DNA from: Pseudomonadota bacterium
GTDB taxonomy: Bacteria; Pseudomonadota; Alphaproteobacteria; Acetobacterales; Acetobacteraceae
Length of the DNA stretch: 48,006 bases
Reading direction: 5' to 3'
Assembly (NCBI GenBank): GCA_021846225.1
Contig: JAJZCG010000007.1
Span: 1-48,006, forward strand
Shown: piece by piece, positions 15,832-19,807 of the stretch
Layout of the letters: every line of letters begins with the position of its first letter
How positions within the stretch are numbered: the first letter of the stretch is position 1
The notes under the pieces: model-generated
What the model was told of the DNA's origin: nothing
What the model saw: the letters and a program-made list of their open reading frames with translations, nothing else
Databases searched by the model: none
Program-made: the position numbers and the translations under genes

Positions 15832-15881
15832 CTGCCTTGTGGCCCAAGTTTTTTCTCCGGTCCAGCCTTGCGAGAGACAGT

Positions 15882-16130
15882 ATGATGATAACAAGCCTCC
15901 CCGCGCACCATAAAGCCATCGACATCACGGCCGAAACCTGCCCCATGACCTTCGTGCGCACCCGTCTGGCGCTCGACACAATGCAGACCGGCGAGATCCT
16001 GCTGGTGCGCCTCAAAGGCGCCGATCCGCTGGCCAACGTCCCGCGCGCCGCGGCTGACCAAGGCCACGACCCGCTGGACCTGCTCGAGCAACCCGACGGC
16101 AGCTGGCTCCTGGTCATCCAGAAGGGCTGA
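15882..16130 (+). CDS. TusA-family sulfur carrier protein
   Basis: 82 residues with the TusA fold. The conserved Cys-Pro is present in ITAETCPMTFVRTRLAL (Cys about residue 19), and the rest fits the two-layer sandwich (GEILLVRLKG, WLLVIQKG). TusA-like proteins relay persulfide sulfur, for example to tRNA thiolation or sulfur oxidation; which applies cannot be told. The start ATG 15882 is preferred over earlier in-frame codons that would overlap the divergent fur-like start. It lies 50 bases from that gene and upstream of ctaA. Confidence 0.82.
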   Translation: MMITSLPAHHKAIDITAETCPMTFVRTRLALDTMQTGEILLVRLKGADPLANVPRAAADQGHDPLDLLEQPDGSWLLVIQKG

Positions 16131-16207
16131 ATCCCCCCGCTGCTGGCGAATTGCGCCGCCACGCCCTATATGCCGCCCGTACCACCGCGCCCAACAGGAG
16201 CCTGAGC

Positions 16208-17248
16208 TTGTCCAAATCCAGCGCCGCCGCCGCCGCAGGCCAAACCAACCGCACCGTTGTCTCCGCCTGGCTCTACCTCCTCTGTTTCATGATCTGGATC
16301 ATGGTCGGCATCGGCGGCTACACGCGCGAGACCGGCTCAGGCCTCTCCATCATGAACTGGGACCCCATCATCGGCACGCTCCCGCCCATGAGCGCCGCCG
16401 CCTGGAACGCCCTCTTCGCCAAATACCAAACCATCTCCCAGTACCAGATCCTGCACAAAGGCATGGACCTCGCCGGCTTCAAGCAGCTCTTCTGGCCTGA
16501 ATACACCCACCGCCTCTGGGGCCGCCTCATGGGCGCCGTCCTGCTGCTGCCGCTCATCGTCTTCGCCCTCACCGGCCGGCTTGAAAAACGGCTGATCCCC
16601 TGGCTGCTCCTGCTCTTCGTCATGGGCGGGCTGCAAGGCGCCATCGGCTGGTTCATGGTCTCCTCGGGCTTCTTCGCGGGCAGCACGGCGGTCGAGCCCT
16701 GGCGCCTCTCGCTGCATTTCTCCGCCGCCATGGTGCTCTATGTCTCCGTCCTCTGGACCGCACTCACCGTGCGACACCCCACGCCCACCGCCCCCTTCGC
16801 GCAGCGCGGCCTGCAACGCCTGACCATGCTGGCCATATTGCTGCTGTTCTGCACCATGTTCGCGGGCACCTTCGTCTCGGGCACCCACGCCATCTCGGTG
16901 TTCGACCCCGCAAAATCCATCGGCATCGGCATGCCCCCGCCGGGCTACCCGCACACCAGCTTCCTCTCCGACCAGGCGACCATCCTCTTCAATCATCAGG
17001 CCCTGGCCACCCTCACCACGCTGGTGCTGCTCATCACCGCCACCAAGGCCCTGCGCAGCAACGCCGGCACCCCCATCCGCGACGCCGGACTCGCCATCGC
17101 CTGCCTGGTGCTGCTGCAATTCACCCTGGGCGTCAGCGCCCTGGTCTCCAAAATGATCGACCTCGGCGTCGCCCATCAGATGAACGCGGTGCTGCTCCTC
17201 ACCGCCTGCATCCTGCTGCTGCACCGCCTGCGCGGCGCCACGGCATGA
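16208..17248 (+). CDS. ctaA: Heme A synthase, CtaA/Cox15 family, copy 1
   Basis: 346 residues, eight predicted membrane helices in two four-helix halves. Cox15/CtaA oxidises heme O to heme A in the inner membrane for aa3-type oxidases. The N-terminal half is canonical: GGYTRETGSGLSI (about residues 36-48), GMDLAGFKQLFWPEYTHR with the catalytic Glu98 and heme-ligand His101, and His170 in LSLHFSAAM. The C-terminal half keeps His263 and His323 but is altered: FNHQ replaces the usual QFxHR, and the usual FNTFPxMxG stretch is lost. The start is TTG 16208 with AGGAG at 16196-16200; earlier in-frame ATG 16151 has no such site. Coupled to the second copy. Confidence 0.87.
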   Translation: MSKSSAAAAAGQTNRTVVSAWLYLLCFMIWIMVGIGGYTRETGSGLSIMNWDPIIGTLPPMSAAAWNALFAKYQTISQYQILHKGMDLAGFKQLFWPEYTHRLWGRLMGAVLLLPLIVFALTGRLEKRLIPWLLLLFVMGGLQGAIGWFMVSSGFFAGSTAVEPWRLSLHFSAAMVLYVSVLWTALTVRHPTPTAPFAQRGLQRLTMLAILLLFCTMFAGTFVSGTHAISVFDPAKSIGIGMPPPGYPHTSFLSDQATILFNHQALATLTTLVLLITATKALRSNAGTPIRDAGLAIACLVLLQFTLGVSALVSKMIDLGVAHQMNAVLLLTACILLLHRLRGATA

Positions 17249-18369
17249 CCCGCGCGCGCGAAAACAACCCCACGCGCCCAAATAAGCCTGCGCGTGGGGT
17301 TGGCGGGGCGGCCACGCGCCCAAATAAACAAGTCGGCAACTGGCTCATCCTGCTCGCCTGCATGATCTTCGGCATGGTCATCGGCGGCGGCCACGCACGC
17401 ACCATCAACGCGGGTTTCTCCATTCAGGTCTGGCGGCCCATCACCGGCTTCATCCCGCCGATGACCGCGGCTGACTGGTCCTACCTCTTCGGCCTGTACC
17501 AAAAAACCGCGCTCTTCCAGTCCCACCCCATCAGCCTCGCCGCCTACAAGGCGCTGTTCTGGCCGATGTTCCTCGACCGCTGCTGGGGGCGGCTCATCGC
17601 CCTCACCTTCATCATCCCCTTCGTGTATTTCTGGTACACCGGGCAGCTCTCGCGGCGCCTCAAGCTCTGGCTCGGCGCCATCTTCCTGGCCGGCGCGGGC
17701 CAGGCCACCTACGGCTGGTACATGGTGCAAACCGGCATGTATCCCGGCGTGCTCTCACCGCCGCCCGCCTGGGCCGGGCCGCACCTCGTCTCCGCCATGC
17801 TGGTCCTCTTCGCCCTGCTCTGGACCGGTCTGACCATCCGCACCCCCACACCCGCGCATCTGCCCGGCGCCGCCCTGCTGCGCCGCCTCACCAGCGCCAG
17901 CCTCGCCCTCATCCTCCTCACCATGTTCTACGGTGCGCTGGTCGCCACCACCAACGCCATCACCGTGTTCAACACCTTCCCCACCATGGACGGCCAGTGG
18001 ATCCCCAAAGGCTTCCTCGCCATGCAGCCACTTTGGTGGAACTTCATCGCCAACCAGGCCACCGTGCAGTTCTGCCACCGGCTGCTGGCCACCATCACCG
18101 CGCTCACCGTGCTCGCCACCGCCATCCTCGGCCTGCGCGCCCCGCTGCCCCCGGCCCTGCGCGACAATTTTCTCATCGTCGCCGCCCTGGTGGCGTTGCA
18201 ATACCTGCTCGGGATGACCACCCTTATCCTGGCCGCGCCCGAGCTGGGCTATGTTCACGAACTCAACGCCGTGCTCCTGTTCGGCGCCACCACCCTGGCC
18301 CGCCACGGCCTGCGCGGCGCCACCGCGCAACACCGCCTCAGCCCATCCCTTGCCGTTGGAGCAGAATAA
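17245..18369 (+). CDS. CtaA/Cox15-family paralogue, copy 2, N-terminal catalytic residues lost
   Basis: 374 residues, eight predicted helices. ATG 17245 overlaps the copy-1 stop by 4 bases. In the N-terminal half the motif corresponding to WPEYTHR reads WPMFLDR, so Glu becomes Met108 and the heme-ligand His becomes Asp111, while His180 remains. The C-terminal half is textbook: FNTFPTMDG (about residues 242-250), PLWWNF, VQFCHR with His278, and VHELNAV with His338. The first 30 residues carry a duplicated TRPNK and lie over an inverted repeat. Alone it should not make heme A; a cofactor-holding partner of copy 1 is the inference. It could instead be a decaying duplicate, but the clean reading frame argues against that. 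Confidence 0.85.
   Translation: MTRARENNPTRPNKPARGVGGAATRPNKQVGNWLILLACMIFGMVIGGGHARTINAGFSIQVWRPITGFIPPMTAADWSYLFGLYQKTALFQSHPISLAAYKALFWPMFLDRCWGRLIALTFIIPFVYFWYTGQLSRRLKLWLGAIFLAGAGQATYGWYMVQTGMYPGVLSPPPAWAGPHLVSAMLVLFALLWTGLTIRTPTPAHLPGAALLRRLTSASLALILLTMFYGALVATTNAITVFNTFPTMDGQWIPKGFLAMQPLWWNFIANQATVQFCHRLLATITALTVLATAILGLRAPLPPALRDNFLIVAALVALQYLLGMTTLILAAPELGYVHELNAVLLFGATTLARHGLRGATAQHRLSPSLAVGAE
17266..17327 (+). repeat. inverted repeat plus 16-bp direct repeat in the ctaA copy-2 start region
   Basis: AACCCCACGCGC (17266-17277) and its exact inverse GCGCGTGGGGTT (17290-17301) form a 12-bp stem with a 12-base loop. CCACGCGCCCAAATAA occurs twice (17270-17285 and 17312-17327), producing the TRPNK duplication in the protein. 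A second, competing pairing is therefore possible, since both direct-repeat copies match the same complementary arm. Confidence 0.6.
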
Positions 18370-18370
18370 A

Positions 18371-19807
18371 TTGTCCGAAGCCCTGACCACCGCCGCCACC
18401 CTCTTCCACGGCACCAACGGGCTGGACCCGCACACCGCCGCCCGCCACATCGCCACCGCGACCGATGGCGCCGACGATGGCGAGCTGTTCCTCGAATACC
18501 GCGAATCCGAATCCATCAGCCTGGAGGACGGCCGCATCCGCGCCGCCAGTTTTGATACGCGCCGCGGCTTTGGCCTGCGCGCGGTGCTGGGCGAGGCCAG
18601 CTACTACGCCCATGCGGGCGAGATCACCGATGACGCCCTGGCCCGCGCCGCCGCCACCATCAAAGCCGCCAAATCGCTGGAACATTCCGCCACCGCCGCC
18701 GCCCCCGCCGCCGCGCAGGCCCCGCTCTACGCCGGGCTGAACCCCCTGGCCGAAATGCCGTTTTCCACCCGCGCCGGGCTGCTTCAGGAGATCGACGCCT
18801 TCGCCCGCGCGGCCGACCCGCGGGTCATCCAGGTCATGGCCAGCATCGCGGGTGAATGGCAGGCCATCGAGATCATCCGCGCCGATGCCACCCGCCTGGC
18901 CGACCTGCGCCCCCTGGTCCGCCTCAACATCTCCGTCGTGCTGGAACACAACGGGCGGCGCGAGTCCGGCTCGCACGGCGCGGGCGGGCGCACCTCCTAC
19001 GCCCCGCTCATCGCCCCGGCCTACTGGCAGGGCGCGGTGCATGAGGCCATCCGCCAAGCCGCCGTGAACCTTGAGAGCATCCCGGCCCCCGCTGGCGAAA
19101 TGCCGGTGGTCCTGGGCGCCGGCTGGCCCGGCATCCTGCTGCATGAGGCCATCGGCCACGGGCTGGAGGGGGATTTCAACCGCAAGCAGACCTCCGCCTT
19201 CGCCGGACTCATGGGCAGCCGCATCGCCTCCAAAGGCGTCACCGTGGTGGATGACGGCACCATCCCCAACCGCCGCGGCTCATTGACGATCGACGACGAA
19301 GGCACCCCCACCTCGCGCACCGTCTTAATTGAGGACGGCATCCTCACCGGCTTCCTGCAGGACCGCCAGAACGCCCGGCTGATGAACATGCGCGCCACCG
19401 GCAACGGGCGGCGCGAATCCTACGCCCACGCCCCCATGCCGCGCATGACCAACACCATCATGCTCGGCGGCGCGGCGAGCATGGACGACATGATCAAAAG
19501 CATCAAACGCGGCCTCTACGCGGTCAACTTCGGCGGCGGCCAGGTGGACATCACCTCCGGCAAATTCGTGTTCTCCGCCTCGGAGGCCTACATGATCGAG
19601 GACGGCAAAATCACCGCCCCGGTGAAGGGCGCCACCCTCATCGGCAACGGGCCGGACGCGCTGACCAAAGTGGAGATGATCGGCAACGACATGGAGCTGG
19701 ACCCCGGCATCGGCACCTGCGGCAAAAACGGCCAGGGCGTGCCCGTGGGCGTCGGCCAGCCGACCATGAAAATGTCCGGCCTCACGGTGGGCGGCACCGC
19801 CGCTTAA
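18371..19807 (+). CDS. tldD: Metalloprotease TldD
   Basis: 478 residues. TldD with TldE/PmbA forms a heterodimeric zinc protease that degrades unfolded peptides and matures some microcins. The zinc motif HEAIGH is present in LLHEAIGHGLEGDFNRK, and other landmarks are RRGSLTIDDEGTPTS, YAVNFGGGQVDITSGKFVF and GTCGKNGQGVPVGVGQP. The start is taken as TTG 18371 (LSEALTTAATLF), one base after the ctaA copy-2 stop, with GGAG at 18358-18361; the frame is open further upstream only through ctaA. The TldE partner is not in the window. Confidence 0.9.
   Translation: MSEALTTAATLFHGTNGLDPHTAARHIATATDGADDGELFLEYRESESISLEDGRIRAASFDTRRGFGLRAVLGEASYYAHAGEITDDALARAAATIKAAKSLEHSATAAAPAAAQAPLYAGLNPLAEMPFSTRAGLLQEIDAFARAADPRVIQVMASIAGEWQAIEIIRADATRLADLRPLVRLNISVVLEHNGRRESGSHGAGGRTSYAPLIAPAYWQGAVHEAIRQAAVNLESIPAPAGEMPVVLGAGWPGILLHEAIGHGLEGDFNRKQTSAFAGLMGSRIASKGVTVVDDGTIPNRRGSLTIDDEGTPTSRTVLIEDGILTGFLQDRQNARLMNMRATGNGRRESYAHAPMPRMTNTIMLGGAASMDDMIKSIKRGLYAVNFGGGQVDITSGKFVFSASEAYMIEDGKITAPVKGATLIGNGPDALTKVEMIGNDMELDPGIGTCGKNGQGVPVGVGQPTMKMSGLTVGGTAA

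Follow-up and report, generated by a model that had tools for sequence, protein, structure and literature searches.

A conserved tandem pair of COX15/CtaA genes in Acidocella and Acidiphilium joins a complete-looking heme A synthase to a paralog without the catalytic glutamate

The stretch of DNA analysed here (the window; 48,006 nucleotides) comes from a genome of the genus Acidocella (Acetobacteraceae). It carries two head-to-tail genes of the COX15/CtaA family that overlap by four nucleotides (Table 1), and both lie where the original prediction had placed two coupled Cox15/CtaA genes, at 16208..18369. The start of the first gene, copy 1 (ctaA1), is a TTG codon with AGGAG upstream; a longer TTG frame begins at 16151. 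The PF02628 profile matches both proteins over nearly their full length (E 1.9e-83 for copy 1 and 2e-79 for copy 2, ctaA2), and these are the only PF02628 matches in the window's own genome, a 2.69 Mb assembly that is 98% complete.

Table 1. Position of the tandem COX15/CtaA genes and their neighbours in the window
Feature	Position	Strand	Basis or remark
TusA-family gene, upstream of copy 1	15837..16130	+	
Copy 1 (ctaA1), COX15/CtaA family, 8 TM, complete-looking heme A synthase	about 16208..17248	+	PF02628, residues, AF2 model
ATGA shared by the end of copy 1 and the start of copy 2; putative translational coupling	17245..17248	+	
Copy 2 (ctaA2), COX15/CtaA-family putative pseudoenzyme	17245..18369	+	PF02628, residues, AF2 model
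tldD (PmbA/TldD metallopeptidase), directly downstream of copy 2	18371..19807	+	TTG start taken

The tight packing of the two genes extends well beyond the window: a possible copy 2 start at the same offset of -4 nt is present in 36 of the 46 distinct pair loci, and 43 of them have one between 12 nt ahead of the copy 1 stop and 10 nt beyond it. The overlapping start of copy 2 fits matched synthesis of both copies. RNA folding around the junction of the two copies gave nothing unusual (z -1.68 for the whole region). The N-terminal extension of copy 2 is about 30 codons long in the window and 3-12 codons in most relatives. Within it lie a 13-bp stem with a 12-nt loop at 17265-17302 (part of a noted region, 17265-17327) and a 14-base direct repeat at 17272 and 17314, two copies against 0.02 expected by chance; among the 186 loci checked, this repeat is confined to the window's own genome. 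The fetched flanks contain tldD at 46/46 pair loci compared with 16/40 single-copy ctaA loci, and a TusA-family gene at 6/46 and 0/40, respectively. The presence of tldD beside the pair and beside some single-copy genes fits a tandem duplication in place.

The pair was found in all 38 genomes of the Acidocella genus. Named records of A. aquatica, A. aromatica, A. facilis and A. aminolytica are among the relatives fetched, together with metagenome assemblies, to which the closest relatives belong. In the family sample, CtaA is present in 240 of 299 genomes, and tandem pairs occur only in g1, the Acidocella genus (7/7), g96, the Acidiphilium genus, to which Acidiphilium multivorum belongs (6/6), and their sister genus g24 (1/1). 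Contig C1 of G232 and NC_015178.1 of A. multivorum AIU301 show no difference over the 4000 bases tested. The two copies, whose co-occurrence had been put forward as a check, are thus found together in every genome of this clade that was examined. The 45 genomes concerned (38 of the Acidocella genus, 6 of the Acidiphilium genus and one of g24) have one gene of each kind apiece, apart from G321, which has two of each; in G302 copy 1 is split across contig ends. The two tandem pairs of G321, a genome of the Acidocella genus, lie near contig starts (C35:6-1978 and C34:945-2911; L043, L185). In one of them copy 1 is 89% similar to that of the window and copy 2 66%, while in L093, a record with a contig as long as that of the other pair, the values are 68% for copy 1 and 93% for copy 2. 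Either recombination or a chimeric assembly may lie behind this.

Outside these three genera, family genomes with at least two matches have a second match that is partial, weak or on another contig; one of them, G144, has two full-length CtaA genes on two contigs. In the class sample (CtaA in 111/142 genomes) the only full tandem pair is that of the window's own genome, and two other genomes have a partial second match. The phylum sample (CtaA in 195/299) contains 12 genomes with two matches and no further full-length tandem pair. Re-examination of ten of the 12 showed one gene hit in two pieces or two frames in six, a second match that is incomplete or weak in three and a distant additional copy in one; the remaining two are the window's own genome and G122, where the additional match is weak and interrupted. 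In one genome outside the class, a further full-length PF02628 protein, only distantly similar, is encoded on a separate contig (L168, G886:C64:12892-13809; E 5e-31) and is possibly another CtaA type. The DNA pattern for WPM..DR.WGR, an exact pattern of low sensitivity, occurs in one of 385 class genomes, the window's own; five of the 385 are from the family, the window's own included.

The roles of the Glu and His positions discussed below are taken from the accessible parts of PMC12808453, PMC13213658 and PMC7327177. Copy 1 of the window has the catalytic Glu and all four heme-ligand His, namely E98/H101 (WPEYTHR), H170, H263 (FNHQ) and H323. At H263/Q264 it has His-Gln for His-Arg, and NTFPxMxG is gone from the loop before TM6. 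Copy 2 has M108/D111 (WPMFLDR) where the family has the catalytic Glu and His; it keeps H180, H278 (VQFCHR), H338 and FNTFPTMDG, and His-Glu replaces His-Gln at its last ligand. The motif differences originally claimed for the two proteins are therefore real, and at the Glu and the TM2 His they are not chance, since they hold across 45 distinct copy 1 and 46 distinct copy 2 sequences. The catalytic Glu and the four His are present in copy 1 of Acidocella (38/38 distinct sequences) and of the Acidiphilium genus with g24 (7/7), and a reading genome by genome finds the Glu of the TM2 ExxHR motif in 46/46 copy 1 genes. Copy 2 has lost this Glu in 46/46 distinct sequences (44 Met, one Asn and one Asp), with the same result for the 46 gene copies read per genome; its TM2 His, the first substrate-heme ligand, is Asp in 46/46, and the other three His are kept in 46/46. 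These are not residues normally seen in single-copy relatives: the Glu, the TM2 His and the HR are present in 41/41 single-copy family CtaA, a count that covers the fetched and aligned sequences of the family rather than all its single-copy genes. For the alignment counts (133 of the 138 distinct core sequences, the other 5 being no longer than 280 aa) copies were assigned by overall similarity, and the per-genome reading split them by His or Asp at one position.

The C-terminal half differs between lineages. Of the 45 copy 1 genes whose C-half was scored, 38, all from the Acidocella genus, have HQ as in the window, and the other 7, from the Acidiphilium genus and g24, have HR; the loss of NTFPxMxG is likewise a trait of Acidocella and not of Acidiphilium. 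In copy 2 the C-half His is followed by Arg (HR) in 46/46 gene copies. Of the C-half motifs described as missing from copy 1, the loop motif and the Arg that follows H263 are indeed gone, but the ligands are not affected, since both axial His of heme b are kept. As these His are invariant in the copy 1 sequences read, copy 1 has probably not lost the ability to bind heme b. Copy 1 of the Acidiphilium genus and g24 has a change of its own, GxYVQNxNAG compared with GGxTRLTGSG of the family in the TM1/first-loop segment (L070, L073, L074, L086-L089), which is derived and differs from the change in Acidocella. Copy 2 has conserved segments specific to it: GGGHART, WPMFLDR and HELNA.

AF2 models of both copies are confident 8-TM folds (pLDDT 89.2 and 86.8), and their best PDB match is 6a2j, the B. 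subtilis heme A synthase, followed by 8aw5, the Aquifex trimer. A phmmer search of each protein against PDB sequences gave no match, and a profile search against PDB returned 8aw5 only (E 2.6e-6 for copy 2 and 0.56 for copy 1), with the C-half of copy 2 aligned to the N-half of 8aw5. The NCBIfam equivalog cut-off of 550 bits is missed by copy 1 (205) and copy 2 (173), and it is uninformative here because five single-copy relatives also fall below it (274-309). With PF02628, the two-bundle 8-TM fold, the catalytic Glu and the four His all in place, copy 1 is best read as a complete heme A synthase that would convert heme O to heme A. Copy 2 shares the domain and the fold and lacks the Glu and one of the four His.

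Trees were built on reduced sets of 98 and 51 sequences, in which the single-copy members are mostly the best-scoring matches. In the larger tree the members of all pairs group together (SH-aLRT 99) within the single-copy CtaA of Acetobacteraceae, and copy 2 forms one clade (SH-aLRT 100) on a stem of 0.64. The more careful 51-sequence tree supports the pair group at 100/99 and the copy 2 clade at 100/100; across trees the copy 2 stem is long (0.64-0.83 changes per column). These topologies indicate that the pair arose by one tandem duplication of the ordinary ctaA of the family. In the 51-sequence tree Acidocella copy 1 groups with copy 2 (95/85) and not with Acidiphilium copy 1; the expected grouping of Acidocella and Acidiphilium copy 1 was not recovered and was not rejected either (p-AU 0.151). 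The trees appear not to separate fully a plain duplication history from gene conversion, which we count against the explanation favoured below.

Heme A is a pigment needed for breathing oxygen. A COX1-family oxidase subunit, from a family that includes quinol oxidases, is present in 35/35 genomes tested, and the window's own genome has one. That genome has one cox operon, coxB-coxA-ctaB-coxC-surf1 (COX2, COX1, a UbiA-family gene read as ctaB, COX3 and SURF1), and a gene for SURF1, the usual heme A insertion factor, is also part of the cox operon in g24. CtaD matches of 1.8e-212 or better were listed in the family table for seven g1 genomes, the g24 genome and five of six g96 genomes. Given that the two copies are the only CtaA genes found and that the oxidase is apparently normal, the pair is the only visible source of heme A. 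One genome of the Acidiphilium genus (G196) keeps the pair and has only weaker CtaD matches; this, too, counts against our explanation.

CtaG/Cox11, the CuB assembly factor, was found in 0/24 pair-holding genomes tested (17 of the Acidocella genus, 6 of g96 and one of g24) compared with 7/11 others, and it is absent although cox operons are present in pair holders (L125 G000:C5, L130 G023:C52). Across the family, 182 of 299 genomes have Cox11 and 184 have CtaD over the cut-off. The idea that copy 2 replaces Cox11 was dropped, because Cox11 is also missing from genomes with a strong CtaD and a single CtaA in at least g59 (5 genomes), g66 (1) and g98 (2), as read by eye from the tables; the loss of Cox11 is thus not tied to copy 2. 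A g98 sequence adjoins the pair clade in the 98-sequence tree. Cox11 is also missing from some further genomes, whose assemblies are incomplete or whose CtaD match is close to the cut-off.

What copy 2 may do can be judged from heme A synthases studied elsewhere. According to the accessible text of PMC13213658, the E166A change in yeast Cox15 abolishes activity and leaves oligomerisation intact, each of the four His is essential, and oligomers assemble whether or not the enzyme is active; the corresponding parts of PMC7327177 describe the Aquifex enzyme as a trimer whose core is made of the C-bundles. By these data, copy 2 should not make heme A alone and should be able to enter an oligomer with copy 1. 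The explanation that we favour, with moderate confidence, is that heme A synthesis is catalysed by copy 1, and that copy 2 is an inactive paralog kept as its non-catalytic partner. A mixed oligomer is the likeliest form of this partnership, because heme A synthases are homo-oligomers with a C-bundle core and inactive protomers still oligomerise; by this analogy copy 2 probably co-assembles with copy 1. In such a scheme, a single ancestral ctaA (type 2/class D) would have undergone tandem duplication before Acidocella, Acidiphilium and the sister genus diverged. Copy 1 would have stayed catalytic, converting heme O to heme A in the N-bundle through the Glu and the His pair and holding heme b in the C-bundle. 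In copy 2 the catalytic Glu and one of the substrate-heme ligands would have disappeared early, and with them the ability to make heme A alone; purifying selection would then have preserved the protein as a dedicated partner, its synthesis matched to that of copy 1 by the gene overlap. In the mixed oligomer it would contribute its C-bundle to the core, its heme b and possibly the handling of heme O or heme A. The faithful retention of copy 2 suggests that it assists the enzyme, as a partner or a helper, and is not a broken leftover.

Copy 2 could instead act alone in another step, which we count against the partner explanation. It would then be a separate membrane heme-binding protein that stores or regulates heme O or heme A, or transfers it to COX1, with no fixed complex with copy 1. 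We regard this as an unlikely alternative. Its three remaining His, the Met and Asp at the old site and a long stem followed by strong conservation of the copy 2-specific segments would suit such a protein, and the route of heme A to COX1 is described as unknown in the available part of PMC9145763. The tight overlap and strict co-occurrence of the two genes, however, fit a stoichiometric partner better, and with SURF1 encoded in the cox operon of both genomes mentioned above copy 2 need not replace it.

The original prediction went further than a partner role and read the pair as an obligate hetero-oligomer with reciprocal halves, in which copy 1 provides the catalytic N-bundle and copy 2 the heme-b C-bundle, neither being complete alone. 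Columns at least 95% identical in family single-copy proteins (68 in the N-half and 34 in the C-half) were compared by Fisher tests. In Acidocella the tendency is reciprocal: copy 1 keeps 51/68 N-half columns compared with 30/68 for copy 2 (p=0.0004), and copy 2 keeps 21/34 C-half columns compared with 12/34 for copy 1 (p=0.05). In Acidiphilium with g24 the N-half bias recurs (50/68 for copy 1, 32/68 for copy 2, p=0.003), but the C-half of copy 2 is no better than that of copy 1 (18/34 and 24/34, p=0.21). Over the 29 loci in which both copies were retained as distinct, mean p-distances are 0.234 (N) and 0.410 (C) for copy 1 and 0.301 and 0.347 for copy 2, which corresponds to N/C divergence ratios of 0.57 and 0.87 around the 0.69 of family single-copy genes; in Acidiphilium with g24 the distances are 0.145 and 0.236 for copy 1 and 0.302 and 0.306 for copy 2. 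ML partition rates for the same 29 loci, given without error bars, are 0.66 (N) and 1.14 (C) for copy 1 and 0.96 and 1.23 for copy 2, and thus do not make the C-half of copy 2 the slower one. Taken together, these comparisons indicate stronger constraint on the N-half of copy 1 in both lineages, and a reciprocal C-half pattern that appears in Acidocella only and by some of the measures.

Of the proposal that each subunit supplies one good half, then, a tendency in Acidocella has some support; the proposal is not supported in general, as the tendency is absent from Acidiphilium with g24 and copy 1 keeps its Glu and four His, including both heme-b His in every C-half read. Nor do the losses go together throughout: copy 1 of Acidiphilium and g24 has an intact C-half despite facing the same kind of copy 2, so the catalytic loss in copy 2 is independent of a changed copy 1. 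We consider an obligate complex of reciprocal halves improbable, and a partial division of labour between the halves possible in Acidocella only. The partner explanation has its own difficulty here, since the 30 of 68 N-half columns kept by copy 2 are more than a purely structural remnant might need.

Estimates of dN/dS are 0.04-0.44 for copy 2, compared with 8 relatives, and 0.06-0.66 for copy 1, compared with 7. The top values come from the copy 1 C-half against the two most distant relatives used (dS 0.65-0.75), and by these ranges neither gene looks to be decaying. Copy 2, which the original prediction allowed might prove sporadic and disabled, is conserved under purifying selection. Despite its lost catalytic residues, a redundant duplicate in decay is very hard to reconcile with a full-length frame, three His in all copies read, dN/dS well below 1 and presence in every clade genome examined.

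A more specific version of the partner explanation may be offered tentatively, and we would not put it above the doubtful. Acidocella and Acidiphilium may have an obligate two-gene hetero-oligomeric heme A synthase, made of a catalytic CtaA1 and a pseudoenzyme CtaA2, which would be required for activity through its oligomer core and the heme b of its C-bundle; Acidocella would be further specialised, with the C-bundle of CtaA1 drifting.

The mechanism of heme A synthase, the role of the C-bundle heme b and the reason for oligomerisation are listed as open questions in the accessible parts of PMC7327177, PMC9145763, PMC12808453 and PMC13213658. A natural pair of protomers, one with and one without the catalytic Glu, allows a direct test of the role of the second protomer, and the test is possible in named species (A. 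facilis, A. aminolytica and A. multivorum). For annotation, copy 2 should not be named heme A synthase without a test. The respiratory enzymes of Acidocella and Acidiphilium are discussed, and a Cox15 tree is mentioned, in PMC10715153, in whose main text, as far as available, we found no mention of a second Cox15; a two-gene heme A synthase was not found in the open-access literature searched.

Among known systems the pair is closest to the type 2/class D heme A synthases (alphaproteobacterial CtaA and mitochondrial Cox15), with which it shares the full-length PF02628 domain, the 8 TM and the two-bundle fold, as well as the Glu and four His in copy 1, and both copies are nested in Acetobacteraceae CtaA. 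Those enzymes are encoded by a single gene in the class and phylum samples (bar partial or distant second matches), whereas here a catalytically stripped paralog lies next to the complete-looking copy. The archaeal half-size (type 1A) heme A synthase is also built from more than one chain, being a homodimer, and in its extended variant with variable H3 the four His are not universal; as far as the available accounts go, however, these archaeal forms have retained the Glu and the half-size one is a homomer, whereas the pair consists of two full 8-TM proteins with residues that differ between them, and copy 2 is without the Glu. Pseudoenzymes, paralog subunits of homomer-derived enzymes that are catalytically dead, are a known kind of protein, with septins as an example. 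The literature searched gave no such case among heme A synthases, and co-assembly is here a proposal from the genes; the likeness lies in the course of events, in which one copy of a duplicated homo-oligomeric enzyme ceases to be catalytic and is kept alongside the active one.
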